Program-made: the position numbers and the translations under genes
Part shown: positions 4,625 through 32,626 of the stretch, piece by piece
How positions within the stretch are numbered: the first letter of the stretch is position 1
Layout of the letters: the number at the start of each line of letters is the position of its first letter
Notes under the pieces: generated by a model
Seen by the model: only the letters and a program-made list of their open reading frames with translations
What the model was told of the DNA's origin: nothing
Databases searched by the model: none
NCBI GenBank assembly: GCA_016208425.1
Contig: JACQYA010000064.1
Span: forward strand, 1 to 57,570
Length of the DNA stretch: 57,570 nucleotides
Reading direction: 5' to 3'
Origin: Betaproteobacteria bacterium
GTDB lineage: Bacteria; Pseudomonadota; Gammaproteobacteria; Burkholderiales; Rhodocyclaceae

Positions 4625-4752
4625 GGTCAATCTCCTAAGTTAGGTGGCAGGATGCGCGCGATGCCCGGCCCAGCGATTGAACGACACCTTCGTCAAAACT
4701 GTTTTGGTGCACCGCAGCATTGAGCGAATTATAAGCACCAAAACATGCTTGT

Positions 4753-4789: not shown

Positions 4790-4825
4790 CCCCGCTCCAC
4801 GCGCCCCCTAAAGCGGTTTGACGGA

Positions 4826-5311
4826 TTACTTCGTTGCCCCCTTGGCTTTGATTTCCGCCTTGACTTCCTTGAATACGCCGCCCCACATGGGGTGCCCCGC
4901 TTCCGCCTTGCCCAACTCGAATTTGGGATCGAAAGCTAGCGCCTTGCGAAAATGCCCCTTGCAAACGTCGCGCTGTTTGTTCGCGCAGGCCATAAAAGCG
5001 AGGTACTTGTTCGCCGACACCTTGTCCGCCCTGTTGCTCAAACCGAGGGACAAGGCTTTTTGCAACTGCTGCTGGGATCTTTTGTACTGGCCGTTCTCGT
5101 AGGCCGTGACACCTTGCCGGAACTCCTGTTCGGCGACGACTTCCGGAGGCGTTTCGACGGGAGCCGGCGCGGGCTTCTCGATTTTTTCGCCAGAGCCCGG
5201 CGTCGCGGCGACCGGCGTCGGTTCCGGCGCTGCCGCCGGAGTCTGGGTGGTGGTGCCGGCGCAACCATAGATGCCGAGCAAAACGACGAATGCGGGTAAC
5301 CAACGGTGCAT
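4826..5311 (-). CDS. Small lipoprotein with TPR-like repeat region
   Basis: A 161-residue exported lipoprotein. The N-terminus has a hydrophobic segment ending in lipobox-like GIYGC (Cys17), then a Pro/Ala/Thr-rich linker (residues 20-58). A helical region follows (EQEFRQGVTAYENGQYKRSQ and onward) that looks like two TPR-type helices with a conserved-looking Cys pair near residues 109 and 117. It starts 11 bases after the stop of the upstream Ser/Thr kinase gene, so the two probably form an operon. It may be an envelope partner or target of the kinase; no enzymatic motif is visible. Confidence 0.7.
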   Translation of the reverse strand: MHRWLPAFVVLLGIYGCAGTTTQTPAAAPEPTPVAATPGSGEKIEKPAPAPVETPPEVVAEQEFRQGVTAYENGQYKRSQQQLQKALSLGLSNRADKVSANKYLAFMACANKQRDVCKGHFRKALAFDPKFELGKAEAGHPMWGGVFKEVKAEIKAKGATK

Positions 5312-5322
5312 ATTTTTCTCCC

Positions 5323-6732: not shown

Positions 6733-6908
6733 TCGACGCCCCAGAAAACGTTGACGCAATCCTTGAGTTGATGGAAGCGGGGACTGTTTGCGCGCAAACC
6801 TCCTTCCGCCCGGCAAGTGTAACCGAAATGAAAGGGCTGCTATTTGACCGCACGCGAAAGCGGCACAAAATCCCGGCGCGCGGAACTCAAAAAAAAGTCG
6901 CGGCGTGT

Positions 6909-6937
6909 TTGATGCTCCAATGTGGTGTGGTTATACT
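6909..6937 (+). promoter_or_regulatory. Predicted sigma-70 promoter for the 7026 gene
   Basis: TTGATG (6909-6914) and TATACT (6932-6937) with a 17-base spacer closely match the -35/-10 consensus. A start site near 6944 would leave a leader of about 80 bases before the AGAGGGGG ribosome site of the gene at 7026. Confidence 0.55.
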
Positions 6938-7025
6938 AACCGTATGGTCTTGCGGAGGAAGCTGAAAGGCCAGTTATTCCGAACGCTGTATCGGCGTTTC
7001 GATCAATCAAAGAGGGGGATTTCAA

Positions 7026-7865
7026 ATGCTGAAGGCTTTGCGGGTCATTACTTGTGCCGCCGTAGCGCTCGGTTTTGCGACGGGCTGCACGTCGGTGGAA
7101 GAAAAACGCGGCGGCTCCGGCGGCGCGCTGTATTTTACGGACTTCTCGGACGCGGCCAGAACGGGCGCGTTTTCGCCCCGGGGTGACGGGCTGTGGACGG
7201 TGGGGCAGGTTTCGTTCAGCGGCTACTACCCCGCCCAACTGGCCAAGAAATACGGCTACCGGGGACGGGACGAACGCGACGCGCCGACCGCCGTCGGACA
7301 GTTGAGCAAGGTGTCGAACATTTCGGTGCCCGGATATGTCCAGAGCCGCGAAAAAGTCAGTCCGGGGCAGAACCCCAATCTGCTGAACGTCCTCAGCCCC
7401 TACACGCTCGGCGATTTTACCGCCGAAACCGCCGTCGTGTTTTACTCGGGGCGCGCGAGCAATTACGACGACGCCGCCGACCGCGAGCGTTCCATCGAGT
7501 TGCGCCGCCGCGCCGGCGCCGGCATGATCTTCAGGTACCAGGATCCCAACAATTTCTACATCGCGCGCACCGGCGGCGAGAACGGGATCGAAATCGGCAA
7601 GATGGTGAACAACCAGTACACTTCGCTCAAGTTCGTCGAAACCGAGCGCCTGGAGAACTTCCTGGCGCCCGAGCGTTCCGCCGTGCTGCGGGTCGTCGCG
7701 CGCGGCAGCCAGATCGATGTCTATGTCGACAACAACCTCGTGGCGCGCGTACAGGACGGCACCTTCCCCATCGGCCAGGTCGGTCTGACCACCTTCCGTA
7801 TCAAGGCGGCGTATCTATACTTCGCCCTGTGGGAAGATTTTGGACCCAACCTCCCGTATTTCTGA
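7026..7865 (+). CDS. Exported lipoprotein with lectin/glucanase-like fold
   Basis: A 279-residue lipoprotein. The signal peptide ends in lipobox GFATGC (Cys about residue 21). The rest resembles concanavalin-A-like jelly-roll proteins of the DUF1080/laminarinase-fold type: FTDFSDA near the start, GAGMIFRYQDPNNFYIAR and VDNNLVARVQDGTFPIGQVGL near the end. These may bind or cleave sugars, but no catalytic Glu pair can be assigned by eye. A strong AGAGGGGGA ribosome site precedes ATG 7026. It opens a plus-strand gene series, although a terminator follows it directly. Confidence 0.65.
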   Translation: MLKALRVITCAAVALGFATGCTSVEEKRGGSGGALYFTDFSDAARTGAFSPRGDGLWTVGQVSFSGYYPAQLAKKYGYRGRDERDAPTAVGQLSKVSNISVPGYVQSREKVSPGQNPNLLNVLSPYTLGDFTAETAVVFYSGRASNYDDAADRERSIELRRRAGAGMIFRYQDPNNFYIARTGGENGIEIGKMVNNQYTSLKFVETERLENFLAPERSAVLRVVARGSQIDVYVDNNLVARVQDGTFPIGQVGLTTFRIKAAYLYFALWEDFGPNLPYF

Positions 7866-7881
7866 TGCTCTGATCGGATAT

Positions 7882-7914
7882 CTGCCCCGGGCCGGGTTCC
7901 GGGGCAGTTTTTTT
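7882..7914 (+). terminator. Intrinsic terminator
   Basis: A 9-bp stem CTGCCCCGG / CCGGGGCAG with an 8-base loop is followed by seven T. It lies 17 bases after the lipoprotein stop and directly before the next coding region, so it probably partly insulates the downstream genes. Confidence 0.85.
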
Positions 7915-17471: not shown

Positions 17472-18188
17472 ATGCAAGCAAGCGACGACCCGATGGCGAT
17501 TCCCTTGTGGATCGATGGTCACGCCTATCTGACGATGGCCGAGACCTTTTTCGATGTGCGCAACCCGAAAACGGGCGAAGTCCTGCGCCGCGTTCCCCTG
17601 TGCGGGGCAGGCGAGGCGGCGAGAGCCGTGACCGCTGCAGAGGCCGCGTCACGCGCTTGGGCGGCGCAGGCGGCAACCGCCCGTGCCGGTTTACTCGCGG
17701 CGGTCGGCGATGCTCTGGACGGCTACACGGCACATTTTGCCAAGCTGATCATCGAGGAAACCGGCTGCGACGCCGATGCCGCAACAGCTGAAGTCGCTGC
17801 GGCAGCCGTTTTGTTGCGCGGTGGTGCGCCGGGGATCGCATCCGGCTTGCCGGCCACGGCGCCGGCCTCTGTACTGGCGATTGTCGCCGACGATACGGCG
17901 CCTTTGCTCGGGTCTTTGTCGCGCGCCGTACCCGCTTTGTTGGGCGGTGCGACGGTTGTCGTCAAACCTAGCCCGAAAGCGCCATCGCCGGTTTTTGCAC
18001 TGGCCGAGCTCACCGCGCGCAGCGGCTTTCCCGGCGGCGTTTTTAACGTGCTGCAAGGCGACGATGCGGCCATTTTGGGTTTGTGTGCTGCAGGCGCGGT
18101 CGTAGCGCTCCACTTTTCCGGCGATCCGGCGCTGGGCGCCAGAGTGGGAGCGCTTGCCGCGCGTCACGGCAAACTTTTTGTCGCCTGA
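17472..18188 (+). pseudogene. Aldehyde dehydrogenase, N-terminal half only
   Basis: A 238-residue frame matching the N-terminal NAD-binding part of aldehyde dehydrogenases (FFDVRNPKTGEVLRRVPLC near the start, then VVVKPSPKAP and SGFPGGVFNVLQGD). It stops just where the ELGGK motif should begin, so the catalytic Cys and Glu domain is missing. Only 89 bases separate its stop from the next gene, with no room for the lost half. The AAAGGAAG ribosome site is intact, so the fragment may still be translated. Normal family length is near 480-500 residues. It is probably a decayed gene and unlikely to be an active dehydrogenase. Confidence 0.75.
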
Positions 18189-18277
18189 TCGCTGGCCGGC
18201 AGGCGACTTCTCCGGAGTCCGCACGGATACACGGCCGCAAGCCCGCTCGTGCGGGGCGTCCGTTTTGGGGGGCGAGC

Positions 18278-18745
18278 ATGGATAGGGATTTTCTTCAGCG
18301 CGCCATCGACCTGGCGAGCGCCGGCGTCGCCCGTGGCGAAGGCGGGCCGTTTGGCGCGCTCATCGTTTGCGGCGGGCAGGTGATAGCCGAAGGCTGGAAC
18401 CGCGTGGTGGCGTGTACGGATCCGACGGCGCACGCCGAGATCGTTGCCATCCGCGCCGCCTGCGCCCGGCTGGAGCGCTTCAAGCTCGACGGTTGCATCT
18501 TGTACACCTCCAGCGAGCCGTGCCCGATGTGCCTGTCGGCGGCCTACTGGGCAGGCGTGCAGCGCATCGTCTTCGCCAGCCCGCGCGCCGCTGCGGCGGC
18601 CATCGGTTTTTGTGACGACGATCTGTATTGCGAGCTCGCGTTGCCGCAAGAAGCGCGCAGCATCCCGACGCAACATCTGCCGCTTCCCGGTTCCGACGCG
18701 CCGTTGCGCGCCTGGTCGGACAACCCCGACAGGGTGAAATACTGA
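18278..18745 (+). CDS. Nucleoside/guanine deaminase-like zinc enzyme
   Basis: A 155-residue member of the cytidine/deoxycytidylate deaminase superfamily. Zinc-binding motifs are clear: HAEIVAI (His ligand and catalytic Glu) and PCPMC (two Cys ligands). GGPFGALIV at the start and FCDDDLY near the end resemble bacterial guanine deaminases (GuaD type) more than tRNA adenosine deaminase TadA. It would convert guanine to xanthine in purine salvage. A G-rich ribosome site precedes the ATG. Confidence in the superfamily is high, in the substrate moderate. Confidence 0.85.
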   Translation: MDRDFLQRAIDLASAGVARGEGGPFGALIVCGGQVIAEGWNRVVACTDPTAHAEIVAIRAACARLERFKLDGCILYTSSEPCPMCLSAAYWAGVQRIVFASPRAAAAAIGFCDDDLYCELALPQEARSIPTQHLPLPGSDAPLRAWSDNPDRVKY

Positions 18746-18987: not shown

Positions 18988-20213
18988 TTAAGCGTTGGCG
19001 GGGATGAAGCCGTGCTTGACCGGCATCTTGATCCGGCGGGGCGCATTGCGCTGAACGCTCAATGCCTCGTAGTCAATGACCTTATCCCGGTAAGGCGTGT
19101 TGTTCTTCAGCATGGCGAAGAGGGTGCGCAGCATCTTGTGCGCCGGCGCCACGATGGGCTTTTTGTGCCCCTTGCGAAGGCTCGGCGCGGCGAACTTGTC
19201 CTTCGGTGCGCGGCGGCTGCGGGCGGCCGCTTGGGCGAACCCGCAGAGCGACCGCCTGGCCCGGGCATTGCCTTTGCGGGTCTTTCCGCTCTTGCGTTTG
19301 CCCGCGCTCCGCTCTCGTGGTTGCCCGGACAAATGCCGACCTACGACGCCAGCTTTTCCGCACGGCCAAAGCGGTTCATGTCGGCGCCGATTTCCACCAG
19401 CGGCATCGCCGCACCCATCAGGTCGATGCCGGGGAGGGTTTGCAGCAGGATCAGTTGAGGCTGCCAATCCTTGAGACCTCCGATCAACGCCCGATCAAAC
19501 CGCCTCATGCGACCCCCCAGTTCCTCGATGTGGGCCAGGGCTTCTTTCAACACAAACAGGTGGGGGCCGCCGAGTTTTTCCGGTTGCAAGGCGTCGAACA
19601 GTCGCTCGCGGCTCGCCCGCAAGCGCCCGGCAAGATTGAGCACCTCCGGGATGGACTGGCCCTCGGTCGGGGCTTTGACCATCGCGCGCGCCGCCTGACC
19701 GTGAATGTCGGAGACCCGCGCGTTAAGCCGGACGCCGGCATCGGCCAGCAGTTTGTGCGGCCGGTTCTTCTCCGAGGCCAGCATACCGCCGAGCTTCTGG
19801 CGCTGGCGTGCCATCAGGCGCAGGTGCCTGATGCCGGCCGGCGGGATGGATGACGCGCGCAGCAGACCGGCACGCGCCAACGTGGCCGGCCAGTGGGCAT
19901 CGGCGACATCGGTCTTGCGCCCCGGCACGTTTTTGGCGTGGCGCGCATTGACTGCACGGGCGGCAATGCCAACGGCCTCCAGCGCGGCATACGGACTCTT
20001 CCGGTAAATGCCCGTGCTCTCCATGACCACTACGTCGGGGGCGACTTCGCGCGCCCACGGCGCCAAGGCGCGACGATCCCGCTTGAAGGCGCCAAACTCG
20101 CGGTGCGCTACCGTGAGCGTGCCGTCGGCTTGCTCGGCCACCGCGCAGGCGCCGATCTTGGCCTGATGAACGTCCAGCCCGATGACCCGCTTGTAAGTCG
20201 GGGTTGTTTCCAT
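18988..20213 (-). pseudogene. IS110-family transposase, inactivated
   Basis: The frame from ATG 20213 encodes an IS110-type DEDD transposase: VIGLDVHQAKIG, VVMESTGIYRKSP and GRKTDVADA carry the acidic catalytic residues. It is broken by an amber stop at 19341-19343, where a Trp is expected after EKLAS. Just beyond, the pentamer CGCTC is tandemly duplicated at 19305-19314 and shifts the frame. The rest of the serine-containing C-terminal domain (KGHKKPIVAPAHKMLRTLF, ending at 18988) continues in another frame. Both lesions must be bypassed for full-length protein, so this copy is probably dead. Confidence 0.88.
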
Positions 20214-20500: not shown

Positions 20501-20660
20501 GTTAGGTGAAAGACGAAGCGCAGAAGAAACGCAGCTCTTGCAAAATGAAAAATTCAAACCGGCATGTTCGTACCGTGTTGCAATGTTGTTCGCGCAACTG
20601 CCCCACATTGCCCCACACGTCTCCCGGCATTATACTTACCAGATTTTTCGCGAGGCTAGC

Positions 20661-22019
20661 GTGGCAAGTGTGAGTAGTGTGAATTGCGTGAACCCGCAAG
20701 TCGTCACCATTTCTTCAGGAACGCCTGTCGCGCTGGCGCGCGCTTGGCTGTGGCTGGGCGTTATGGCGCTGATCGGCTCGGGCTTGCTTGCCATGCTGCT
20801 GGTTTTCTCCAGAACGCCGGGCATCCAGGATGTTTTTCCCCTCAAGGATCTTTTCCGTGCCGCTCTGGTCGTGCATGTGGATCTGTCGGTGGCCATCTGG
20901 TTCATGGCCTTCGCCGCCGTGATCTGGAGCGCGGTCGGCGGGGCAGGTCTGGCGCGGATGGGTTGGACCGGTTTCGGTCTGGCGGCGCTGGGGACTGCGG
21001 TGATGACCGTTTCCCCTTTCTTTCCCGGCGCCGAGCCGGTGCTCAATAACTACATCCCGGTGTTGCAGCAGCCGGTATTTTTCGCGTCGCTGTGGATTTG
21101 CGGCGCCGGTTTCAGCCTCGCAGTCCTGCGCGCGCTGATTACCATCTGGCCGCAACACTTCGCACGTTCGCCTTTTCAAGTTGGGACTTTCCTGAGTGCC
21201 GTTGCGGCTTTCTTCGCCTTGGCCGCTTTTTTCTGGTCTTGGTGGATGGTGCCGCGCATCGAGGAAAAAATTTATTACGAGGTGTTGTTTTGGGGCGGCG
21301 GGCATACCCTGCAGTTCCAGCACGCGCTGCTGATGGTTATCGCCTGGCTGTGGGTCGCCGGGGCGTTGGGACGCCCGCCGCCGGTGTCGCCGCGCGCCCT
21401 GTCGGCGCTATTTTGCGTTGCTGCGCTGCCGCTGCTCGTGGTGCCGGCGATTTACCTGATGGTGCCCGCCGGCTCGCTGCCGCACATGGAACTTTTCGCC
21501 AGCCTGATGAAGTGGGGGCACCCTTATATGGGGCCGCTCCTCCTGCTTGGCGCCCTGTCGCTCTGGGGGGTGCGCAAGGTCGACGCGCATCCGGCCAAAT
21601 CTGCCTTTGTCGCTTCATTTGCCCTGTTTGCGCTGGGCGGCGTCCTGGGGTATATGATCCAAGGCGTCAATGTCGTGATTCCCGCCCACTACCACGGTTC
21701 GACGGTTGGCGTGACGCTAGCGTTTATGGGCTTGGCTTACGTGCTTCTGCCCCGGTTGGGGTTCCGGGTGGCGGAAGGACGGATGGCCGTTTGGCAACCC
21801 TATGTCTATGGCGCCGGCCAGTTGGTGCACGTGCTCGGCCTAGCCTGGTCGGGTGGCTATGGCGTACAGCGCAAGGTTGCCGGCGCAGAGCAGTTGCTCA
21901 CGACTCTGCCGCAGAAGATCGGCATGGGCATGATGGGTTTGGGGGGGATGGTCGCCGTGATCGGCGGCCTGATGTTCGTGGTGGTCTGCCTCAAGGCCAT
22001 GTCGTTTAGGAAAACCTGA
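20661..22019 (+). CDS. Divergent heme-copper oxidase subunit I homologue
   Basis: A 452-residue membrane protein with about 12 helices, starting at GTG 20661 after GAGG. It aligns by eye with heme-copper oxygen/NO reductase subunit I. A helix-II His lies in VVHVDLSV (about H72), the helix-VI motif is WGGGHTLQF (H215), and the helix-X pair is HYHGSTVGVTLAFMGLAY (H343/H345). The usual helix-VII HH pair appears as PHM (H275, M276), and the residue four after H215 is Phe, not Tyr. The copper site therefore looks altered. No subunit II gene adjoins; the partner gene is a TlpA-like thioredoxin whose start overlaps the stop by one base. Confidence 0.75.
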   Translation: MASVSSVNCVNPQVVTISSGTPVALARAWLWLGVMALIGSGLLAMLLVFSRTPGIQDVFPLKDLFRAALVVHVDLSVAIWFMAFAAVIWSAVGGAGLARMGWTGFGLAALGTAVMTVSPFFPGAEPVLNNYIPVLQQPVFFASLWICGAGFSLAVLRALITIWPQHFARSPFQVGTFLSAVAAFFALAAFFWSWWMVPRIEEKIYYEVLFWGGGHTLQFQHALLMVIAWLWVAGALGRPPPVSPRALSALFCVAALPLLVVPAIYLMVPAGSLPHMELFASLMKWGHPYMGPLLLLGALSLWGVRKVDAHPAKSAFVASFALFALGGVLGYMIQGVNVVIPAHYHGSTVGVTLAFMGLAYVLLPRLGFRVAEGRMAVWQPYVYGAGQLVHVLGLAWSGGYGVQRKVAGAEQLLTTLPQKIGMGMMGLGGMVAVIGGLMFVVVCLKAMSFRKT

Positions 22020-22679: not shown

Positions 22680-24596
22680 CTACTTTTGCTCGGGCTGGAA
22701 GGCCATCGAACGGGCCGATATTGTGAAGGCATCCGAGAAACACATACCGTCTTCCGCGCCATGGTTCTTGAGGAAGGGGAATATTGCTTCTACCATGCGC
22801 ACCGAACCGCAGGCGTAGATTTCGTAGCCCTTGAGTTCGGGAAAATCCTGCAGGATCGCTTCGTGCACCAGTCCGCTACGACCGCTCCAGGCATCTTCTG
22901 GCGCCGGCTCGGAGAGTACCGGGATGAAGTGGAAGTTGGCGTGCTCGCGCGCCCAATTCTGCGGTAGTTCGGGCAAATAGAGGTCTTTCAGTTGCTTCAC
23001 GCCCCAGTAAAGATGTATTTGCCGCTTGATGCCGCGCTTGAAGGCATCCTCGACCATGCTCTTGACCGGCGCGAAGCCGGTGGCGCCGGCCACAAAGACG
23101 ATGGGACGGTCGGATTCGCGCAACGAAAAATCACCGATCGGACCTTCGAAGCGGATCTCGTCGCCTTCCCTCATCTTCTCGAAGACGTGCGTCGTGAAAC
23201 GACCGCCGGGCATCAGCCGGATCTGGAGTTCGACAAGCTCGGCTTCATGCGGCGGGTTGGCGAATGAGAACGCCCGTCTCTGGCCGTCTTCGAGAATGAT
23301 GTTGACATACTGGCCGGCCTTGAAGGGAATTTGCTGTCCTTCAGGCAGCTTGAGCAGCACGCGCATGACGTCGTAGGAAAGCGCCTCCATTTTGACGACG
23401 CGCGCGCCGTATTCCTGGATGGCTTCGGTCGCCGCGCCGGCTTCGTACTCGATCTCGACATCGTCGAGCGGGGTGGCGCAGCACATCAGCACTTTCCCTT
23501 CGGCAAGCTCTTGTGCAGACAGCGCGTTCGGCTGGTACATGCCGGGATCAACCTTGCCCTGTAACACCGAACACTTGCACACCCCACAGCCGCCGTTGCG
23601 GCATTCGTAGGGCAGGTTAACGTCCTGGCGCAGTCCGGCATCGAGCAGCGTTTCGCCAAAGCGCGCCGTTACGGCCTTGTGGCCGGGGTGGAAGGTAACT
23701 TTGGTTTCTTCCCTGGCCGTGCCCCGCCGCTTTGGCGGCAGCCAAGGCATGAGAAAAAGCAGGCCGGTGAGCGCGAGAACACCGAACCACAGATGCAGCG
23801 GATCGGTGACATAAACGAGCGCCAGAACCGGCAATTCGAACCAGTCGAAAGCAATGTTGGTCGGCACGACTAACATGTCGGCTTCGCCCCCCTGGCTGAG
23901 AACGGGTTTGACCAGGGAAAGTGCCAAGAACATCAGCGAAACCGCAATCGCGATCGGGCGCGGCGGGTTGATATGGGCGCGCGGCACACGCTGTACGTGA
24001 ACCCACATGATGATCGCAACAATCAGCGGCGCGCCGAGGTGCACGAAGGCCAACAGCGTGAACAGGCGGCTGTTGACGCTTTCCTCGTATAGGAAATTGC
24101 GGATCAGCGTGCCGTTGAACATCGGCAGTATGTCGAACCACTCGGCGGTGGCGATGACGACGAACTGCGCCAGCTTGTCCCATACCAGCATGAAGCCATT
24201 GACGCCGGCAATATAGACCAGCCACAGCAGCGCGACGCCAGTCAGCCATGAAAAAGCGCGGAAGCCGCGATAGCGGTCATAGGCGAAGTGCCGCAGCATG
24301 TGCAGCATCATGGTGAGGATCATGCCGTCGGTCGCGTAGCGGTGGACGCTGCGCATGATGCCGCCGGCCCACCACTGGTCGTGGGTGATGCTTTCGACCG
24401 ACTCGAAGGCATCATGGACCCCCGTATCGGCAAAAATGTAGAGATAAAAACCGGTGCCGACCAGCAGCCAGAACTGCCAAAAACTGATGGTGCCAAGATG
24501 ATAGAAAGGGTTCAGTTTGTCGCCAAAGGCGACGTTGAAAATGTTTTCGAGGCGCATAAAAAACCAGCGCACGAGCTGTTGAAGAAGTTTGACCAT
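22680..24596 (-). CDS. Cytochrome b / [2Fe-2S] ferredoxin / FAD-NAD(P) reductase fusion
   Basis: A 638-residue triple fusion. Residues 1-290 are a bc1/b6f-type cytochrome b with both heme pairs (H85/H99, H186/H200, each 14 apart) and a FDWF motif at 250-253 where the Qo-site PEWY would fall. Residues 300-390 are a plant-type [2Fe-2S] ferredoxin (C332, C337, C340 and a fourth Cys at 372/373). Residues 395-630 are a ferredoxin-NADP reductase fold: RAFS for FAD, AGATGFAP and YACGSVRMV for NAD(P). It should pass electrons between the quinone pool and NAD(P) across the membrane. It is the last gene of a three-gene operon. The start is uncertain because no strong ribosome site precedes the ATG. Confidence 0.9.
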   Translation of the reverse strand: MVKLLQQLVRWFFMRLENIFNVAFGDKLNPFYHLGTISFWQFWLLVGTGFYLYIFADTGVHDAFESVESITHDQWWAGGIMRSVHRYATDGMILTMMLHMLRHFAYDRYRGFRAFSWLTGVALLWLVYIAGVNGFMLVWDKLAQFVVIATAEWFDILPMFNGTLIRNFLYEESVNSRLFTLLAFVHLGAPLIVAIIMWVHVQRVPRAHINPPRPIAIAVSLMFLALSLVKPVLSQGGEADMLVVPTNIAFDWFELPVLALVYVTDPLHLWFGVLALTGLLFLMPWLPPKRRGTAREETKVTFHPGHKAVTARFGETLLDAGLRQDVNLPYECRNGGCGVCKCSVLQGKVDPGMYQPNALSAQELAEGKVLMCCATPLDDVEIEYEAGAATEAIQEYGARVVKMEALSYDVMRVLLKLPEGQQIPFKAGQYVNIILEDGQRRAFSFANPPHEAELVELQIRLMPGGRFTTHVFEKMREGDEIRFEGPIGDFSLRESDRPIVFVAGATGFAPVKSMVEDAFKRGIKRQIHLYWGVKQLKDLYLPELPQNWAREHANFHFIPVLSEPAPEDAWSGRSGLVHEAILQDFPELKGYEIYACGSVRMVEAIFPFLKNHGAEDGMCFSDAFTISARSMAFQPEQK

Positions 24597-24659
24597 TGGT
24601 GTTGTCCGCTCAGGAGAATGGGGTGCCGAGGCAGGAAGCTTGTCTTCCAGCGCTGGTCG

Positions 24660-25157
24660 TTACTGGAAAAAGAGTCCGCCCTTGTCCGGGTTGAAGTCGA
24701 TCACCAGCACCTGCGCCGGCTTGAGTGTCACCTCGGCTTCCTTGACAAAATTAAAGCCCGGTTTGACCAGGTTGTCATTCATTCTCACCGATAGCTGGTG
24801 CGTGCCGGCCTTCGCTTCAAAACGCTTGTAGACGACCGAGACACCGTCCTTGTAAAGGCCGGTAGGGTGCATCACCGTGCGGAAGGCCGGTTGGCCGTCG
24901 ATATCCACTTCAAGTTTGATGTCGGAGCGCTCGCGCGGGCACTCCAGCGGAGCGCGCATGTTGCGGGGAAGCTTATCGAGCTCCTCCGCGCTACGCTTGC
25001 GGCATTCGCGGTCGCCGAGGTGCGCGATCGAGAGTTTGATCAGCGCGACATCGTCGGGGATCTGATGGTATTTGGGCGATGTGGCGAAATAGCCGATGAA
25101 GGTGGCAAATGCACCGTAAAGGATCACCTGGCCGACGATGGCGGCGGGTTTAAGCAT
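24660..25157 (-). CDS. Small membrane-anchored protein between the cytochrome b fusions
   Basis: A 165-residue protein with one N-terminal membrane helix (AAIVGQVILYGAFATFIGYFA) and a periplasmic domain. The domain has two Cys (RECRKRS, PLECPRE) that could form a disulfide, and an immunoglobulin-like C-terminal part (AGTHQLSVRMNDN, EVTLKPAQVLVIDF). GGAGAA precedes ATG 25157, and the first 8 bases overlap the end of the upstream fusion gene, so translation is probably coupled. I do not recognise the family. Position argues for an accessory subunit of a complex built from the two flanking cytochrome b fusions. Confidence 0.75.
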   Translation of the reverse strand: MLKPAAIVGQVILYGAFATFIGYFATSPKYHQIPDDVALIKLSIAHLGDRECRKRSAEELDKLPRNMRAPLECPRERSDIKLEVDIDGQPAFRTVMHPTGLYKDGVSVVYKRFEAKAGTHQLSVRMNDNLVKPGFNFVKEAEVTLKPAQVLVIDFNPDKGGLFFQ

Positions 25158-26754
25158 GATGGGAAGTTCTCCGGGAGTAAGGGGGTAGTCGGTCGATCGA
25201 GCTTGCCTGGGTGGCGATACGGGCTCTGAATTCCAGTAAGGCCTGAGCCAGCGATAGATCGTCGTGCGTGGAGGCTGATACCAGCAACAGCCGTTCATCT
25301 GGAACGCGAGCACGCAGTTGCGGCGCACGCTGGCGCGTCAGACGCTCGGCAGTCCACCGCTCGCCAAGGCGGAAATGGCAGCCTCCTGGCCGGCAACCGG
25401 TAACTACCACGCCATCGGCTCCGCCGCGCAACGCGTATTCGACGAATGACGGCGGCAAAAGACCGGAGCAGATCAAGCTGATCACCGCCGTATCGGGGGC
25501 GGAAAGCTTCTTTACGTCTGCGCCGCAGTCGCAGCCAAATACGATGATGCGGGTGGTGCCGCTCAACCGGGAAAGCGCGCTTTCAAGTTGCCGGCGCAGC
25601 ATGTCCACCGTTAGCTGTGGCATATCGATACCGGTAAGCAGATTTTCCTGGCTGCGGAAAGGCGTAGAAGAGGGGCACGAACCCGCGCAAATCCCGCAAC
25701 TGGCACACAGTTTGGCGTCGACCACGGCGATGTTGTGGCCGGGTCTGTCGGGATGTGGTGCTATCGTTATTGCCGCGTAAGGGCAGTCCACGTGGCAACG
25801 GCTGCAACCGTTACAGTTGGCGGCATTCACTACCGCAACGGGGGCGGCTTTGGGTTGCGGCAGAAGCGGGAGAACGAATAGCAGCAAAGTTCCCGCAAGC
25901 AACAGCAGCCAGATAAACCCGGGGGAGGTGAAGTCGGTCAAGGGATGGATGAACAGGACAAACCAGTCGATGCGGAGTTCGGGCGGAACCAGCGCCAGAT
26001 TGGCCGGGGCGTTGCTTACTGCCGGCTTGACAAGGGCTAGCAGCAGAAGTGCGCCTATCGTCCCCAGCATCAAGCGCCTTGAGGGAAGGTAATCGACTTT
26101 TGTGATGCGGTTCAGGTGTGCCCACACGGCAAGGATAAGCAACAGCGGGACGCCGATGTGGATGAAGATCAGGACGGTGAAAAAACGATCGTTGATCGAG
26201 TCCGGAGCCAGGAAATTGCGCGCCGTCGGCGTGCTGAAGAAGGGGAGCCAGTCGAGCAGCTCGGTGGTTGCGGTGGCAGAAAACTGGGCGAGCTGATCCC
26301 AGACGATCCAGTAGCCGCCGATGCCGGCGCCGTAAGCGAGCCAGATCAGCGGCACACCCGTCATCCAGGAATACAGGCGAAAGCCAGCGTAATGGCGGTT
26401 CGCCCACTCGCGAACAAGGTGCAGCATCATGACCAGCATGAAACCATCGGTCGAATAGCGATGCAGGCTGCGCAGGATGCCCCCCAGGTACCACTGCTCC
26501 ACGGAAAGGTAGCCTATCGAGCTGTGCACCCCCTCTATGCTGGTGTCGAGTACCGTGTACAGATAGAGTCCGGTGCCGACGACGATCCAGAGAAAATATA
26601 GCGCCATTGCACCCAAGTGGCGGAGGGGATTGTTGTCTCCCCCGAACGGAACATCGAATATTTCTTCGATGCGTTGGAACAGCGTTTGCGCGTTGCTGCG
26701 CAGGGTGTGGTGCAAATTCACGTAGGAGAATCCAGGAAGGGTTGCGGCGACCAA
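25150..26754 (-). CDS. Cytochrome b / 2x[4Fe-4S] ferredoxin / MvhD-like fusion
   Basis: A 534-residue fusion. Residues 1-300 are a cytochrome b with H98/H112 and H199/H213 as heme ligands and an IDWF motif (262-265) at the PEWY position. Residues 310-362 hold two [4Fe-4S] motifs (C314/317/320/324 and C350/353/356/360). Residues 400-500 resemble MvhD, the iron-sulfur delta subunit of methyl-viologen hydrogenase-heterodisulfide reductase complexes (FGCDCGAD, C429, VTGCRPGGCHFRLG). It is first in the operon, directly behind an FNR-type promoter. TTG 26754 follows stop codons directly, so translation starts there or slightly downstream (GTG 26721). Confidence 0.88.
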   Translation of the reverse strand: MVAATLPGFSYVNLHHTLRSNAQTLFQRIEEIFDVPFGGDNNPLRHLGAMALYFLWIVVGTGLYLYTVLDTSIEGVHSSIGYLSVEQWYLGGILRSLHRYSTDGFMLVMMLHLVREWANRHYAGFRLYSWMTGVPLIWLAYGAGIGGYWIVWDQLAQFSATATTELLDWLPFFSTPTARNFLAPDSINDRFFTVLIFIHIGVPLLLILAVWAHLNRITKVDYLPSRRLMLGTIGALLLLALVKPAVSNAPANLALVPPELRIDWFVLFIHPLTDFTSPGFIWLLLLAGTLLLFVLPLLPQPKAAPVAVVNAANCNGCSRCHVDCPYAAITIAPHPDRPGHNIAVVDAKLCASCGICAGSCPSSTPFRSQENLLTGIDMPQLTVDMLRRQLESALSRLSGTTRIIVFGCDCGADVKKLSAPDTAVISLICSGLLPPSFVEYALRGGADGVVVTGCRPGGCHFRLGERWTAERLTRQRAPQLRARVPDERLLLVSASTHDDLSLAQALLEFRARIATQASSIDRLPPYSRRTSHHA

Positions 26755-26767
26755 CTATTAGTTCTTG

Positions 26768-26809
26768 ATGATATGCAGGTCGAAAAACCGGTAACTTGAC
26801 AAGTATCAA
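26768..26809 (-). promoter_or_regulatory. Predicted class II FNR/ANR-dependent promoter
   Basis: On the minus strand, TTGATACTTGTCAA (26809-26796) matches the FNR box TTGAT-N4-ATCAA at 9 of 10 positions. A -10 hexamer TATCAT (26773-26768) follows after 22 bases, the spacing expected when FNR sits at -41.5. The predicted start near 26761 lies only about 7 bases before the TTG start, so the mRNA may be nearly leaderless. It should be induced at low oxygen. Confidence 0.7.
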
Positions 26810-26974: not shown

Positions 26975-27856
26975 CTAGGCGCTAGGCGTCTTCGTCCGAC
27001 GCTGGCTCCTCCAGACGTTGATGGAGAGGTAGATCATGAACGTCACGAAAGTCAGGAAACCGGCGATCATGAAGTAAACGGAGTAGTTGGTGCGGTATCT
27101 GCCGGTGACCGGGTCATACACCGAACAGAGAATTCTGACCCGTTCCATGATCTCGGTCAGGGTGCCGGTCTCCGGGGGAATGTCCGATCCGGTAATCATC
27201 GCTTTAAGGGGTTCGGCCAGGTCGGCGGGAGTAAATTTTTCACCATAGACTTGCCGAAAGATCTTCCCTTCCGCGTCGACCATGGTGACCTGGTTCAGAT
27301 GGTCGAACCCGGCTACCGTCGCAACATAGCTGAAACCGAAATTTCGGGTAAGGTCGTTGAGGACGGCCGGAGACGGGCTGAGAAACTCCCAATTGGGCAA
27401 ATGGATGCCATACTGCGCGGAAAAATTCTTCAGTGCCTGCGGGGTGTCGAACGGCTGGTTGAAACCGATACTTATTACATTGAACCTGCTGGCACCCAAT
27501 ACGCCGACGGTGCCTTCCACCGCTTTTTGCAGGTTGCGCGTGGTGGTCGGGCAGACTTGGAAGCAGGCGGTATACATAAAATTGACCAACAGCGGCTTGC
27601 CGCGATAGCGCGACAGCTCGACCGGTCGCCCTTGTCGATCAAGCAGGACAAAATCGCCAACGGGCTTGCCGATCACGTCCTGAGATAGCTGGTAAGCCAC
27701 TTTCTCGTCGAGGGTGGTCAGGGCGATACCGGTTTGCGCCCCTTGGGGGCGTGCGGTCAGCTTGGGCTTTTCGGCAAGCTGGTCGGCGGGGAGTGCCGCA
27801 TTTGACAGGAATACCAGCGCGGCCGCTACAGCGGCACGAATGAGTGGGTGAATCAA
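26975..27856 (-). CDS. SCO1/SenC-family copper chaperone with C-terminal membrane anchor
   Basis: A 293-residue SCO protein. A signal peptide is followed by a thioredoxin fold with the copper motif CFQVCP and a later His in a VAGFDHLNQVTMV context. A C-terminal membrane helix (YFMIAGFLTFVTFMIYLSINVW) is unusual, as most SCO proteins are anchored at the N-terminus. SCO proteins deliver copper to the CuA site of oxidases. It lies 12 bases after cyoE and closes the operon of the heme-copper enzyme upstream. The TTG start is provisional because no strong ribosome site is visible. Confidence 0.85.
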   Translation of the reverse strand: MIHPLIRAAVAAALVFLSNAALPADQLAEKPKLTARPQGAQTGIALTTLDEKVAYQLSQDVIGKPVGDFVLLDRQGRPVELSRYRGKPLLVNFMYTACFQVCPTTTRNLQKAVEGTVGVLGASRFNVISIGFNQPFDTPQALKNFSAQYGIHLPNWEFLSPSPAVLNDLTRNFGFSYVATVAGFDHLNQVTMVDAEGKIFRQVYGEKFTPADLAEPLKAMITGSDIPPETGTLTEIMERVRILCSVYDPVTGRYRTNYSVYFMIAGFLTFVTFMIYLSINVWRSQRRTKTPSA

Positions 27857-27868: not shown

Positions 27869-28759
27869 TCAGAGTTGAGCGTCGATCATCGCCGCTACCA
27901 GTACCAGCGTCAACTGGATCAATGAGGCGTGGAAACATGCCATCGCCGTCTGGCGGCTGGTTTCGCGCGTCAGGAGCCATGCCTTTTGAATGAACAGAAA
28001 CCCGCCGGCCAACGCGCCGGCAAAATAGACGACGCCAAGCCCGAAGATCAGGGGCAAGAACGATGCGGCAACCAGAGCCAGTGTGCTATAGAAGATCGCT
28101 TGCGCCGCGCGCCGGTCACCGACGACGACGGGCAGCATGGGGACGCCAGCGGCGGCGTAATCGTCGCGGAAGGCGATAGCCAGACTCCAGAAGTGCGGGG
28201 GAGTCCACAGGAAGAGCACGAACGCCAAGGATAGTGGAACTGCCCCAAGCTGCGGGTCGGCGGCAGTGGCGCCAGCCAGTACCGCCCAACTGCCGGCGAG
28301 TCCACCAAAAACGATGTTGAGCCAGGTGCGCCGCTTAAGCCAGACGGTGTAGACGATGGCGTAGAAGAATGCGCCCAGAAATACAAACAAAGCGGCCCAA
28401 GCGTTGAGCGCTACCCACGCTGCGCCGACGGAAAGAACCATCAGCGTGCCGATGACAACCAGCCAGATCGGGCCGTGTTTGATTTCTCCGGTGGCGAAGG
28501 GGCGCTTTTTGGTGCGTCCCATGAGCGGGTCGATATCGTGCTCGTAGTACTGGTTGAAAGCACCGGCGCTGGCCGATGAAACCAGAACCGAGAGCGTCAG
28601 CACGACCAACTGCATCAGGCTCAGGCTGGGTCCCGAACTGACGGCCAGTCCCGCCAGCGCGGTGAAGGTGATGACGACACCGATACGCAGTTTGAACACC
28701 CCCATGATGCTGCGGATGGACAAGCCGGAAGAACTGTTGGATGGCAGAGTCGGTTGCAT
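27869..28759 (-). CDS. cyoE: Protoheme IX farnesyltransferase (heme O synthase)
   Basis: A 296-residue UbiA-type prenyltransferase with about nine helices and both Asp-rich motifs: NQYYEHDIDPLMGRT and FRDDYAAAGVPMLP. It farnesylates heme B to heme O in the membrane, the step before heme A synthase. It lies downstream of the oxidase subunit I gene but 119 bases away, past a GC hairpin and an FNR-like box, so it may have its own promoter. Two heme A synthase genes lie on the other side of the oxidase genes, which completes the pathway. Confidence 0.95.
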   Translation of the reverse strand: MQPTLPSNSSSGLSIRSIMGVFKLRIGVVITFTALAGLAVSSGPSLSLMQLVVLTLSVLVSSASAGAFNQYYEHDIDPLMGRTKKRPFATGEIKHGPIWLVVIGTLMVLSVGAAWVALNAWAALFVFLGAFFYAIVYTVWLKRRTWLNIVFGGLAGSWAVLAGATAADPQLGAVPLSLAFVLFLWTPPHFWSLAIAFRDDYAAAGVPMLPVVVGDRRAAQAIFYSTLALVAASFLPLIFGLGVVYFAGALAGGFLFIQKAWLLTRETSRQTAMACFHASLIQLTLVLVAAMIDAQL

Positions 28760-28878: not shown

Positions 28879-30579
28879 TTAACTAAGCAGCCAGACTTCG
28901 GAGAGGTATTTCCAGTTCACGAAGTAGTAGAGAATGAAGGAAACCAGCAGGAGCGAGGCCAGAACCACCGTGCCCGGAACTGCCACGTGTTCCTCGCTGC
29001 CCGTGTGCGAAGCGGATGCGGCTACCGGTTGAGCGGCCGGGATCGGCGTCGGGTTGTCGGAAACCGCACCGCCTTCCAGCTTCTTGCCGAACAGCAGCGA
29101 ACCGACCACCAGCACGATCCACAGTGCGCCGCCCAGAACAGCGAGCACGCCGAAGATACCGGTCAGACCCATCATCAGATACGCGGCGCCAGGCCACTCG
29201 TACTGGAACGGTGCGCCCGAGAAGGCCATGTCCCAGTGACGGCGGGAAACGCCCAGCGTACCGGCACCCATCATCACCAAACCGAGGACGGACATGCTGA
29301 TGCCGTACAGGTAGGGCTGGATCTGGCACAGTTTCGGCAGGATCATTTCACGGCGGAAGAGCAACGGAACCAGCAGGTAGGTAATCGACATGAAAGCCAG
29401 CGTCGTACCGACGACGACCGTCGCGTGGAAGTGCCCCGGAACGTAGAAGGTGTTGTGCATCAGCATGTTGATCTGTTCGGTGCCCAGCACGACGCCGGAG
29501 ATGCCGCCGAGGAAGCCGAAGCCGACCAGCGAGATGAACATACCCGAAAACACCGGGTTGCCCCAAGGAGCCTTGCGCAGCCATTCGAACAGGCCGTTGG
29601 TGAAGCCCTTCTTGCGCTGGGCCGCTTCGATTGCGCCCGGAACGGTGAAGCCGTGGATCATCGAGGCCAACACCGCGAAGTACATGAAGTAGGAGGTATT
29701 CAACACTTTCCATTCGGCGCTCATGCCCGGGTCGGACAGCAGGTGGTGCGCGCTGGCCAGTTGCAGGAAGAGGATGTAGAGCAGGAAAGCGAAGCGCGAA
29801 ACCTTTTCCGACAGCGGCTTGGCGCCGAACACGACGGCCGCAATCAAGTACCAGATCGAGACGTGCGCGGCAACGTTAACCTGCTGCGAGGAGTGCCCGA
29901 GCGCCCACCACACCATCCGGTACAACTCGGCGTCGATTTCCTTGATCAGACCGACCGACCAGAAGAAGGTCGGCAGCAAGATGCTGGCGCCTGCGGCGAT
30001 GGTGAAAACGGCGATGATGGCTGCCGTCATCGCACCGAAGGTAACCAGCGGGATCGAGCCGGTATAGGTCTGCTCCTTCTTGGCAACGACCAGCGTACCG
30101 AAGAAGATGCCGCAACCGATCAGCGCGCCGACAGCTACCAGAATGATGCCGAGGTAGAAGTGCGGGGCAGCCTGCATCGGCACGTAGGAGGTGAACATCA
30201 CGCTGGACTCGCCCTGGAAGATAGCGACGTTACACATGATGCCGCCAACGACCATCAGCACGAAGGCAACCCAAGCCAGTTTCGGCGTGGCCAGCCGACA
30301 CCTTAGCAGCGTCGAAGACGCAAAGTAGAGCACCGCCATTTCAAAATGGAGAATCCACATGATAATCATGTCGATGCCGTGGGCGGTAAGGATCATGTAG
30401 AACTGGTCGGCCGGAAGCAGCTTGATTGCCGGCCAGCGGGTCAGGATCACCAGCAGCGCGGTAATCCCGCCGACCAACAGCCAGAGGACGCCGACGACGG
30501 CGTTCCAGCGCATCAGCTTTTCAGCCTGATTTTCGAATTGCAGCCCGGAAGCCGGACAGGTGCGGTAAGTCGTAGACAT
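28879..30579 (-). CDS. Heme-copper enzyme catalytic subunit I, B-type-like, active-site Tyr missing
   Basis: A 566-residue, multi-helix catalytic subunit. Heme and copper ligands are present: H67 (AHGID), H229 (GHSSQQVN), the H278-H279 pair (ASAHHLLSDPG) and H383/H385 (PGHFHATVVVGTT). The residue four after H229 is Gln233, where oxygen reductases of the A and B types have the cross-linked Tyr (GHPxVY). This change is reported for several NO-reductase families derived from oxidases (eNOR, sNOR and others), so NO reduction is possible. Genes for a CuA subunit II and a small subunit lie upstream, and cyoE and SCO downstream. Annotation tools would probably call it cbb3- or b(o/a)3-type oxidase subunit I. 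Confidence 0.85.
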   Translation of the reverse strand: MSTTYRTCPASGLQFENQAEKLMRWNAVVGVLWLLVGGITALLVILTRWPAIKLLPADQFYMILTAHGIDMIIMWILHFEMAVLYFASSTLLRCRLATPKLAWVAFVLMVVGGIMCNVAIFQGESSVMFTSYVPMQAAPHFYLGIILVAVGALIGCGIFFGTLVVAKKEQTYTGSIPLVTFGAMTAAIIAVFTIAAGASILLPTFFWSVGLIKEIDAELYRMVWWALGHSSQQVNVAAHVSIWYLIAAVVFGAKPLSEKVSRFAFLLYILFLQLASAHHLLSDPGMSAEWKVLNTSYFMYFAVLASMIHGFTVPGAIEAAQRKKGFTNGLFEWLRKAPWGNPVFSGMFISLVGFGFLGGISGVVLGTEQINMLMHNTFYVPGHFHATVVVGTTLAFMSITYLLVPLLFRREMILPKLCQIQPYLYGISMSVLGLVMMGAGTLGVSRRHWDMAFSGAPFQYEWPGAAYLMMGLTGIFGVLAVLGGALWIVLVVGSLLFGKKLEGGAVSDNPTPIPAAQPVAASASHTGSEEHVAVPGTVVLASLLLVSFILYYFVNWKYLSEVWLLS

Positions 30580-30592: not shown

Positions 30593-31132
30593 TTATTTCA
30601 CGTAAATACGGCCAAGCATGGTGTGGTGACCGATGCCGCAGTACTCGTTACAGACGATGGAATAGGTGCCCGACTTGGTTGGCGTCATCTTGACCACATG
30701 CTCGTAGCCGGGAAGAACTTGAATATTGATGTTCACCGGTTGCAGCGAGAAACCATGCTGATAATCCATGGAGGACAAATGGATCTTGTATTGCTTGCCG
30801 GCTTCCAGTTCGAGGATCGGGTACCAGTTCCACAAGCGGGCGATCAGGTAGCCATCGCCACCGGCTGGCACCTTGACGACCGGGATATTCTGGTCTGTTT
30901 CGGTGCGCACGGTATTTTCGGCGATGAACTTTTCGGCCTTGGCGGCAAACATCTCCGGCGTGGTCTTGTAAGCCTCGTTCGAGAGGTTCTGCTTGCCGTA
31001 AATGTGCCAGTAAATCATCATTCCGAACATGGTCATGGCCCATATAAAGGCGATGCCGATCCAGGCCCACTCGGTTTTGTCGATGGGCTGCTTCCACCAG
31101 AGCCGTTCCGACGGCGGTAAAATTGCACTCAT
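30593..31132 (-). CDS. CuA-containing subunit II of heme-copper enzyme
   Basis: A 179-residue subunit with one N-terminal membrane helix (WAWIGIAFIWAMTMFGMMIYW) and a periplasmic cupredoxin domain. All CuA ligands are visible: His in MDYQHGFSL, then CNEYCGIGHHTM with Cys, Cys, His and Met correctly spaced. It should accept electrons from cytochrome c or a cupredoxin and pass them to subunit I, whose gene starts 13 bases downstream. The short form with a single helix is typical of B-type (ba3-like) enzymes. A CuA centre also occurs in some oxidase-derived NO reductases, so it does not settle the substrate. Confidence 0.92.
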   Translation of the reverse strand: MSAILPPSERLWWKQPIDKTEWAWIGIAFIWAMTMFGMMIYWHIYGKQNLSNEAYKTTPEMFAAKAEKFIAENTVRTETDQNIPVVKVPAGGDGYLIARLWNWYPILELEAGKQYKIHLSSMDYQHGFSLQPVNINIQVLPGYEHVVKMTPTKSGTYSIVCNEYCGIGHHTMLGRIYVK

Positions 31133-31160: not shown

Positions 31161-31307
31161 TTACTTGGCGAGCGGGACGCTCATGATGTCGATGACGCCC
31201 CACAGTATGTAGATCACCCCTGGGGAGGCTACGCCGAGGAACAGTAGCAGGAAATGGTTATCCAGCAGCTTTTGCATGAACGGGATGTCTTCGTTGTTGT
31301 CGGCCAT
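31161..31307 (-). CDS. Small single-helix subunit of heme-copper enzyme
   Basis: A 48-residue protein, MADNNEDIPFMQKLLDN at the start, then one hydrophobic helix (HFLLLFLGVASPGVIYILWGVIDIM, residues 19-43). The ATG at 31307 has a strong GGAGG site 7 bases upstream, so the in-frame upstream extension is not used. It is the first gene of the operon with subunit II and subunit I. It is probably the equivalent of the single-helix subunit IIa found with ba3-type enzymes. Confidence 0.8.
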   Translation of the reverse strand: MADNNEDIPFMQKLLDNHFLLLFLGVASPGVIYILWGVIDIMSVPLAK

Positions 31308-31424: not shown

Positions 31425-31438
31425 TTGATTTGTGTCAA
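31425..31438. promoter_or_regulatory. FNR/ANR-like box between heme-copper operon and heme A synthase
   Basis: TTGAT-TTGT-GTCAA matches the FNR consensus at 9 of 10 positions. It lies between the divergent small-subunit gene (start 31307) and the heme A synthase gene (start 31589). For the minus strand, TAGCCT sits where a class II -10 would fall, a weak match. It could serve either direction. Confidence 0.55.
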
Positions 31439-31588: not shown

Positions 31589-32626
31589 ATGGACACGCGC
31601 GTCCGCCGACAAATCGCCCTTTGGCTATTCATTTGCAGCGCCATGGTATTCGCCATTCTTGTCGTGGGGGGCGTCACGCGCCTCACCCATTCCGGGTTGT
31701 CGATCGTCGAATGGAAACCGGTTGTCGGCATCGTTCCGCCGCTCAACCAGGCGGAATGGGACGAGACTTTCGACAAATACAAAAGCACGCCCGAATACCA
31801 GAAGGTGAATCACCAGATGTCGCTCGACGAATTCAAGGGGATTTTTTTCTGGGAGTACTGGCACCGGGTCTTGGGGCGTCTGATCGGTGTCGTATTCTTT
31901 CTGCCCTTCGTTTATTTCCTGCTCCGGCGGAAAATGCCCCCCCCGCTGATCCCAAAACTTCTCGGCATTTTTGCGCTCGGCGGGATGCAGGGAGCGATGG
32001 GTTGGTTCATGGTCAAGAGCGGGTTGGTCGATGATCCCAGGGTCAGCCAATACCGTCTGACAGCGCATCTGTCTCTGGCATTCCTGATCTTTATTTCAAT
32101 GATGTGGGTGGCGTTCGGACTTTGGGCGGAGCGGGCGGGCAAAACGGCCGACGCGACATCGAAGAGATTGCAGCGCGCCGGGTTCTGGCTCGCCATACTC
32201 GCTTTCTATATGGTTGTTACCGGCGGTTTTGTCGCGGGCATCCGTGCCGGCAAGGCTTACAACACCTTTCCGTTGATGAACGGCCACCTGCTTCCGCCGG
32301 AAAGCTTCATGATCGACCCGTGGTACCTCAATTTTTTCGACAACATGGCGATGGTGCAGTTCGATCATCGCCTGGGCGCTTGGTTGCTGGCATTTTTGGT
32401 GCCCTGGTTCTGGATCAAGATACGGTCGGCCGATGTGCCGGACAACGCCCGCTTGGCGGCCAACGTATTGTTGGCCGCGCTCGCCGCGCAGATCACGCTC
32501 GGTATTTCGACGCTTCTTCTGGCGGTACCCATCGCGCTCGGCGCCGCACACCAGGGGGGGGCGATGGTCGTTTTCGGCATTTTGCTCTGGCTTAACCACG
32601 AATTGCGCGTTAGGCGCCAGCAGTAG
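31589..32626 (+). CDS. ctaA: COX15/CtaA-family heme A synthase, alphaproteobacterial/mitochondrial-like type
   Basis: A 345-residue, eight-helix membrane protein. The GGVTRLTHSGLSIVEWKPV motif after helix 1 is that of the COX15 type without the extracytoplasmic Cys pair. Heme-ligand His residues are visible in EYWHRVLGR, LTAHLSLAF, QFDHRLGAW and GAAHQGGAM. It oxidises heme O to heme A. ATG 31589 is chosen because the protein family begins here; longer in-frame extensions reach into the regulatory region. A second, Cys-containing family member follows 3 bases later. Confidence 0.92.
   Translation: MDTRVRRQIALWLFICSAMVFAILVVGGVTRLTHSGLSIVEWKPVVGIVPPLNQAEWDETFDKYKSTPEYQKVNHQMSLDEFKGIFFWEYWHRVLGRLIGVVFFLPFVYFLLRRKMPPPLIPKLLGIFALGGMQGAMGWFMVKSGLVDDPRVSQYRLTAHLSLAFLIFISMMWVAFGLWAERAGKTADATSKRLQRAGFWLAILAFYMVVTGGFVAGIRAGKAYNTFPLMNGHLLPPESFMIDPWYLNFFDNMAMVQFDHRLGAWLLAFLVPWFWIKIRSADVPDNARLAANVLLAALAAQITLGISTLLLAVPIALGAAHQGGAMVVFGILLWLNHELRVRRQQ

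Follow-up and report, generated by a model that had tools for sequence, protein, structure and literature searches.

What do two different cytochrome b fusions, encoded on either side of a small membrane protein, exchange electrons with? This question is raised by a 57,570-nt stretch of Betaproteobacteria bacterium (Rhodocyclaceae; GCA_016208425.1, contig JACQYA010000064.1, positions 1–57,570, forward strand; hereafter the window), in which three adjacent genes, here called A, B, and C, encode a cytochrome b joined to iron–sulfur and MvhD/FlpD domains, a small membrane companion, and a paralogous cytochrome b joined to an NAD(P)H reductase module, respectively (Table 1). Beside them are the genes of a heme-copper enzyme whose sequence places it among the eNOR-type nitric oxide (NO) reductases, and across genomes we observed a strong link between A/C and this enzyme. 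We propose, with roughly even confidence, that A, B, and C are a dedicated electron-input module of the eNOR-type NO reductase.

At the position where heme-copper oxidases usually display the motif HPEVY, subunit I of the neighboring enzyme reads HSSQQ, with Q233 at the place of the active-site Tyr in 40/40 loci; the other tested His residues of this subunit were conserved, save for one Arg at H278 among 41. The replacement of this Tyr by Gln is the feature by which eNOR is recognized in PMC8756737, whose available sections list Proteobacteria among its holders and include a Rhodocyclaceae sequence in the eNOR set. Because the enzyme beside A-B-C carries this very Gln, we classify it, from its sequence, as an eNOR-type NO reductase, i.e., a B-family enzyme with a cupredoxin subunit II.

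To quantify the link, we relied on genome surveys confined to the phylum of the window, with 3 to 5 candidates scored per genome. A and C were detected with a profile (A2, E ≤ 1e-35), and eNOR with the subunit I of the window as query (E ≤ 1e-90), i.e., by similarity and not by the Gln itself. Among 399 genomes of the order, A and/or C were found in 36 and eNOR in 35, all 35 being common to both (Fisher p = 1.6e-49, a value that, like the other co-occurrence p values given here, ignores the relatedness of genomes), and the single A/C genome without an eNOR match (G188) is an assembly in 580 contigs. Among 274 genomes of the class, A/C were found in 24 and eNOR in 23, with 22 in common (Fisher p = 3.9e-29); two of these genomes (G872 and G942) displayed a second cytochrome b match that is C-like by length. 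In the phylum survey, matches were obtained in 34 of 398 genomes, and with three candidates scored per genome, only A-type genes were listed except in G000 and G356. At the level of individual loci, eNOR subunit I was located within the fetched stretch of 39 of the 58 loci bearing A, and when 20 genomes in which eNOR was not near A or not found were checked, it was detected in 15.

Gene neighborhoods were compared across 65 context loci (L033–L064, L067–L081, and L116–L133, excluding L065 and L066 as weak, partial matches), 58 of which were considered A-bearing, i.e., the A match extended into the tail. These loci are related to one another, and conservation counts should be read accordingly. 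The presence of C was taken from the gene-order listings of the fetched loci and not from an automatic count, while COX1 and CoxN were counted with an identity floor separating the two. Loci from Rhodocyclaceae, Accumulibacter, Sulfuritalea, and Dechloromonas showed the order COX2-COX1-CtaB-SCO-A-B-C, and some Accumulibacter and contig-end loci carried A-B-C with no eNOR within the fetched stretch. Three loci (L060, L062, and L063; Nitrosomonadales in two record titles, Betaproteobacteria in the third) displayed COX2-COX1-CtaB-SCO-C-B-CoxN-A, and 18 loci from outside the class displayed either COX2-COX1-CtaB-SCO-A-B or A-B with eNOR absent from the stretch. The reductase module of C was found in none of these 18 loci, some of which are short contigs. 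An earlier note on this DNA, made from the sequence alone, had expected the three genes to be found together: this holds for most genomes of the order in which a match was obtained (27 of these 36 with A-type and C-like genes, 3 with A-type alone, 1 with a partial A, and 5 with C-like alone, a second cytochrome without the tail of A being counted as C-like and the tail being checked in fetched loci), and does not hold in the 18 loci from outside the class, where A and B occur without C.

B accompanied A in 57 of the 58 loci, all but the 3.7-kb contig L133, and was also seen without A in L067, beside C, and in L073, beside a C-like cytochrome with no module visible. Because B stays while the A- and C-type modules change among loci, the cytochrome and B constitute the core of the system, and the cytosolic module is what varies. 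In one family (f79; L116, L117, L118, and L133), the order was A-A'-B-CoxN, and the phylum survey found two A-type copies in each of the four genomes; these tandem genes reflect another, separate duplication of this cytochrome. The system was also present on an alphaproteobacterial plasmid (L141; Defluviimonas sp. SAOS-178_SWC), in the order COX2-COX1-cyoE-SCO-A-B, with overlaps of 1 base between SCO and A and 4 bases between A and B, and with B annotated as hypothetical. Directly 3' of A-B on this plasmid is a hemerythrin-family gene (18089–18493), possibly encoding a NO or O2 binder. A plasmid-borne C was also considered and rejected: 894 plasmid records matched, none with at least 80% coverage, and the 8 matches listed covered the reductase half only.

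Gene A was matched by Pfam Cytochrome_B (2.8e-16), FlpD (MvhD; 1.4e-14), and several Fer4-type families, and its best NCBIfam match was to the tail of HdrA2 (positions 571–769 of 777), far below the model cut-off. Searched against the PDB, a profile built from 33 A sequences matched cytochrome b6 (6rqf, 4.8e-25) and bc1 cytochrome b as well as MvhD chains of known structure (9sw2_D, 6e-16; 5odc_D, 7.5e-14), which identifies the MvhD-like domain as a homologue of MvhD and not an unrelated look-alike. The heme ligands (H98, H112, H199, and H213), the eight [4Fe-4S] Cys, and the four MvhD Cys (C408, C429, C454, and C459) were each invariant in 58/58 loci, which, even though the loci are related, goes far beyond chance. 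The [2Fe-2S] cluster of the MvhD domain is itself predicted from the domain and its four Cys. The ef loop reads xDWF in place of PEWY, with D263 in 57/58 and W264 in 58/58 loci. In the predicted structure (pLDDT 81.4), six long helices precede the Fe–S and MvhD part, and among the 50 Foldseek matches listed, bc1 cytochrome b chains aligned over ~280–320 columns, corresponding to the four-helix heme core and the two helices with which the second half of the bc1 protein begins. A chance or mis-framed fusion as the origin of A was ruled out by the 58/58 conservation of domains and cofactor residues and by the recurrent gene order. The longest open reading frame (ORF) begins at a TTG (26754); judging from the starts of homologues, the real start is likely a GTG around 26721. 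The reading frames of A and B share 8 bases.

Gene C likewise combines Cytochrome_B (1.8e-18) with Fer2 (7.5e-15), FAD_binding_6 (9.2e-15), and NAD_binding_1 (2.9e-20), and the best NCBIfam match of its tail, below the model cut-off, was BenC, the electron transfer component of benzoate dioxygenase, a type of reductase that carries electrons from NADH to [2Fe-2S]. Its heme ligands (H85, H99, H186, and H200) and its Qo-like pair (D251-W252) were kept in 26/26 aligned sequences. By homology, the tails of both A and C would be cytoplasmic. The architectures given in the earlier note for A, B, and C, and the four heme His assigned to each cytochrome, are thus confirmed, as are the three minus-strand ORFs in the interval 22680–26809; the end of that interval is the outer edge of an FNR-like box and not coding.

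No Pfam or NCBIfam family matched B at E ≤ 0.01, no PDB sequence matched, and Foldseek returned no match at E ≤ 0.001 despite a model pLDDT of 93, so that B as a known redox protein was rejected. Its beta domain is probably periplasmic, and H46, C52, and C73 were conserved in 58, 57, and 56 of 59 loci, respectively, with no evident cofactor site.

Next, we evaluated how the cytochrome pair arose, using a tree built from 53 cytochrome b domains and one bc1 outgroup, with three of the four f79 pairs included. The 16 C sequences grouped with two A sequences (L060 and L063) with support of 96/99, and the A-type pairs of f79 formed a separate group (100/98). This tree should be read with its long outgroup branch in mind, along with the joining of two long rows and the two changes that it requires for the C module; C formed a single group in 20% of bootstrap trees, and the fusion may have originated in one or two events. 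Most simply, a duplication within the A family and a swap of the cytosolic module, once or twice, would have given rise to C. The tree, with its weak rooting, points to at least two duplications of the cytochrome, one yielding A/C and one A/A'. Such repeated pairing of paralogues fits a heterodimer, and by analogy with the dimeric cytochromes b of bc complexes, an unequal dimer of A and C would be an attractive arrangement.

The surroundings of these loci point to denitrification. Genes for cd1-type proteins (Cytochrom_D1 and cytochrome c), NirJ, and Lrp/AhbA-like heme d1 proteins were found beside A-B in loci from outside the class (e.g., L120 and L124), a cluster of cd1-type genes spanned 17 of the 65 context loci, and cd1-type matches at E < 1e-100 were obtained in 24/24 A-bearing genomes versus 11/26 A-lacking genomes chosen by hand (p = 3.4e-6). 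L120 also carries NrfD-like and 4Fe-4S genes (3073–7914) beside A-B and its cd1 genes, together with molybdopterin-type and NapC-like genes identified by eye, perhaps a further respiratory reductase. We then searched for the FNR/DNR box consensus TTGAT-N4-ATCAA with at most one mismatch. Three matches were obtained in the window, compared with 0.68 expected by chance: two precede the A-B-C and eNOR units (Table 1), and one is at 3749–3762. Across loci, a box preceded A in 26/59 (versus 0.5% of shuffles), 25 of these 26 at −33 to −79, and preceded COX2 in 17/41 (versus 1.8% of shuffles; L062 excluded), while none of 61 loci had one before the internal gene B. The boxes suggest that FNR or DNR could bind at these sites.

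Table 1 Features of the window associated with genes A, B, and C and the neighboring heme-copper enzyme.
Feature	Coordinates	Strand	Description
CoxN, divergent heme-copper subunit-I-like protein	20538–22019	+	Pfam COX1 1.7e-9; frequent neighbor
Gene C	22680–24596	-	638 aa; diheme cytochrome b paralogous to that of A, fused to a BenC-like [2Fe-2S]-FAD-NAD(P)H reductase module
Gene B	24660–25157	-	165 aa; N-terminal transmembrane helix (4–26) + all-beta domain; H46, C52, C73 conserved
Gene A	25150–26754	-	534 aa; bc-type diheme cytochrome b (~14–300) + 2x[4Fe-4S] + MvhD/FlpD [2Fe-2S] domain (cluster predicted)
FNR/DNR-like box	26796–26809	.	Immediately precedes gene A; 55 bases separate its outer edge from the TTG start
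SCO1/SenC copper-delivery protein	26975–27856	-	Pfam; conserved neighbor of A
CtaB/CyoE protoheme IX farnesyltransferase (heme O synthase)	27869–28759	-	52% identity to cyoE at the same place in L141; conserved neighbor
eNOR-type subunit I (B-family heme-copper; HSSQQ), classified by sequence	28879–30579	-	PDB search; Gln at Tyr position in 40/40 loci
eNOR subunit II, CuA ligand set	30593–31132	-	Pfam; ligand positions kept in 40/40 loci
48-aa one-helix ORF	31161–31307	-	No Pfam family; look-alikes in the corresponding position of L119 and L141 (by eye)
FNR/DNR-like box	31425–31438	.	Ahead of the eNOR operon, between eNOR and the divergent CtaA
CtaA heme A synthase	31589–32626	+	Divergent; NCBIfam 1e-99, 334 bits, below the model cut-off of 550

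Among the other features of the cluster, the 48-aa ORF, located between an FNR-like box and COX2, is a probable small eNOR subunit. CoxN was found in 26 of the 65 context loci; the four His tested were kept in 26/26 loci, the Tyr position was occupied by Phe in 25/26 and by Tyr in one, and no His-His pair for CuB was seen by eye. Also by eye, an IS110-type transposase-like ORF lies near the CoxN end of the cluster (19341–20213, minus strand), and the window further includes a pstSCAB-like phosphate-uptake cluster (49844–53749, plus strand) and phasin-like ORFs (3340–4624).

In the input module that we propose, A and C would pair as an unequal cytochrome b dimer, A pairing with itself where C is absent. 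The module of C would load heme bH by the route NAD(P)H, FAD, [2Fe-2S], bH, and that of A would load the same heme from another donor via MvhD and [4Fe-4S]. Electrons would traverse bH and bL and exchange with quinone at the retained sites, quinol being an alternative or additional source, and would exit at the periplasmic side, by B, toward the CuA of eNOR, which would use them to reduce NO to nitrous oxide (N2O). B might serve as a docking or structural subunit in place of a Rieske head. Electron direction is the least certain step of this scheme. Beyond it, we tentatively envision, as a possibility that we doubt more than we favor, a Rieske-less A-C heterodimer in a supercomplex with eNOR, coupling NO reduction via the b hemes to NAD(P)/Fe–S chemistry, either as an energy-saving NAD(P)H or MvhD-donor/quinol:NO oxidoreductase or, in reverse, as a bifurcation of quinol driven by NO and yielding NAD(P)H.

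Several observations weigh against an input module. In the class survey, G999 and G1041 displayed A only, and G1046 displayed eNOR without an A/C match; 19 of the 58 A loci had no eNOR in the stretch, some of them contig ends, and 5 of the 20 rechecked genomes (G188, G646, G691, G1055, and G1059) had none at all. The cytosolic module is inconstant, as illustrated by C without A in L067 and by the C-like cytochrome of L073. With no cofactor site evident in B, the electron step from bL to CuA lacks an explanation, and reductase modules can in principle operate in reverse. Finally, a bc1-type Rieske protein was also encoded in 36/40 A-bearing genomes, so that the electrons of eNOR could come from bc1 together with a c-type cytochrome or cupredoxin. 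For the same reason, A-B as a substitute for a lost bc1 was rejected, and A-B is mostly an addition to bc1 rather than its replacement. In the genome of the window, a TIGR01416 search for Rieske proteins gave matches on contig C190, which also carries another cytochrome b, and weakly on C113, with none on the contig of the window (C56).

Among the other ways to read A-B-C, reverse electron transfer would have the proton motive force push quinol electrons via the b hemes to NAD(P)+ in C and to a low-potential acceptor in A, allowing the TCA cycle to run without oxygen; this is the view of the earlier note and the one reportedly put forward for Accumulibacter. The presence of an NAD(P) reductase and a quinone-type cytochrome b in the single protein C, and Accumulibacter loci with A-B-C and, in some cases, no eNOR in the stretch, would be consistent with such a role. 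However, the almost one-to-one co-occurrence with eNOR that the order and class surveys revealed, the loci outside the class with A and no NAD(P) module, and the direction in which the closest reductase families generally run, from NADH to Fe–S, make it unlikely in our view. Accordingly, the anaerobic quinol-reoxidation setting put forward in the earlier note is not retained, as the constant partner is instead eNOR, with denitrification genes near many loci; quinol may still be used, the two fusions may belong to a single complex, and electrons may flow in reverse. The Qo-like DWF motif and the constant high-potential partner, eNOR, could alternatively be taken to indicate a NO-driven quinol bifurcation, in which one electron would pass from the Qo-like site to CuA and eNOR and the other through the b hemes to cytosolic Fe–S, MvhD, or NAD(P)+. 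We consider this quite improbable, since no Rieske-like one-electron acceptor was seen and, on textbook potentials, electron transfer from ubiquinol to NAD+ via CuA-range potentials looks unfavorable.

The location of A-B-C among the CtaA, CtaB, and SCO genes, together with the two largely conserved Cys of B, would also fit a role in eNOR maturation (insertion of heme or copper, alongside CtaB and SCO) or in sensing of NO or redox state, with no catalytic flux. Yet heme, Fe–S, and Qo-like residues are all conserved, and a chaperone would hardly need an NAD(P)H reductase module, so that this explanation seems very unlikely. A last alternative is the docking of an HdrA-type flavoprotein onto the MvhD domain of A, forming a membrane-linked flavin-bifurcating complex. 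The homology of the tail of A to MvhD and to the HdrA2 tail is in its favor, as is the presence of another FlpD protein, mostly within a long HdrA-like frame, in 24/40 A-bearing genomes. Against it, 16/40 of these genomes had no FlpD outside A-type genes, 15/40 had no HdrA2-profile match better than the tail of A itself (12 of these 15 being at least 97% complete), and 33 stretches (L067–L081 and L116–L133) had no MvhD-tail match beyond A-type genes. HdrA as an obligate partner of A was rejected on these surveys, and we regard docking as extremely improbable. Flavin bifurcation within the A-B-C proteins is itself unlikely because the HdrA flavin domain was absent from A and C in Pfam and NCBIfam searches and because of the 15 genomes without a better HdrA2-profile match, which weighs against the electron-bifurcating reading of the earlier note as stated.

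An input module for eNOR would matter for several reasons. eNOR makes N2O, a greenhouse gas, and occurs in bacteria of wastewater and sediments, and as far as the accessible literature sections go, its electron donor is not settled; a cytochrome b module co-occurring about one to one with it is a concrete candidate. The "unusual cytochrome b/b6" of Accumulibacter would thereby be tied to denitrification and not to an anaerobic TCA cycle alone. If the proposal is true, A-B-C would represent a rare case of a bc-type cytochrome whose cytosolic input modules are exchangeable and whose dimer is possibly unequal.

Parts of this system resemble proteins noted before. Garcia Martin et al. reportedly noted in 2006 an Accumulibacter fusion of cytochrome b/b6 with NAD(P) and flavin domains. 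That protein reportedly has the same architecture as C, and Accumulibacter loci do carry C; the difference is that C is paired with A and that the pair is linked to eNOR. The idea of an unusual cytochrome b/b6 in Accumulibacter is repeated in the available part of PMC9041414. For A, the closest precedent is RME88945.1, an entry of Table A3 of PMC8756737 described as one ORF with cytochrome b6, DMSOR-beta-like, FlpD, and C1 cytochrome c domains. It shares with A the first three of these, yet has the extra C1 cytochrome c domain, and in the sections available is a table line without discussion or stated eNOR link. Those sections also propose two subunits for eNOR with no cytochrome b partner given, and the accessible text of PMC10734462 reports eNOR in some Gallionellaceae with no partner named. 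In titles and abstract starts, we found no cytochrome b-MvhD protein as an eNOR partner and no description of the A-C pairing; an earlier mention in the 2006 Accumulibacter paper or the eNOR survey is possible.

The cluster can further be compared with three known systems. As in published eNOR, its COX1 has the Gln at the Tyr position, and its subunit II is of the CuA type. As in MvhD and the HdrA2 tail, A has a homologous [2Fe-2S] MvhD domain, by prediction, behind two [4Fe-4S] sites, but unlike HdrA, it lacks the flavin domain and is fused to a cytochrome b instead. With the cytochrome b of bc1 and b6f complexes, A and C share the diheme four-helix core and two further helices, the four heme His, and a detectable homology, and they differ from it in having xDWF for PEWY, no Rieske gene on the contig, fused cytosolic Fe–S/MvhD or flavin/NAD modules, and the companion protein B.

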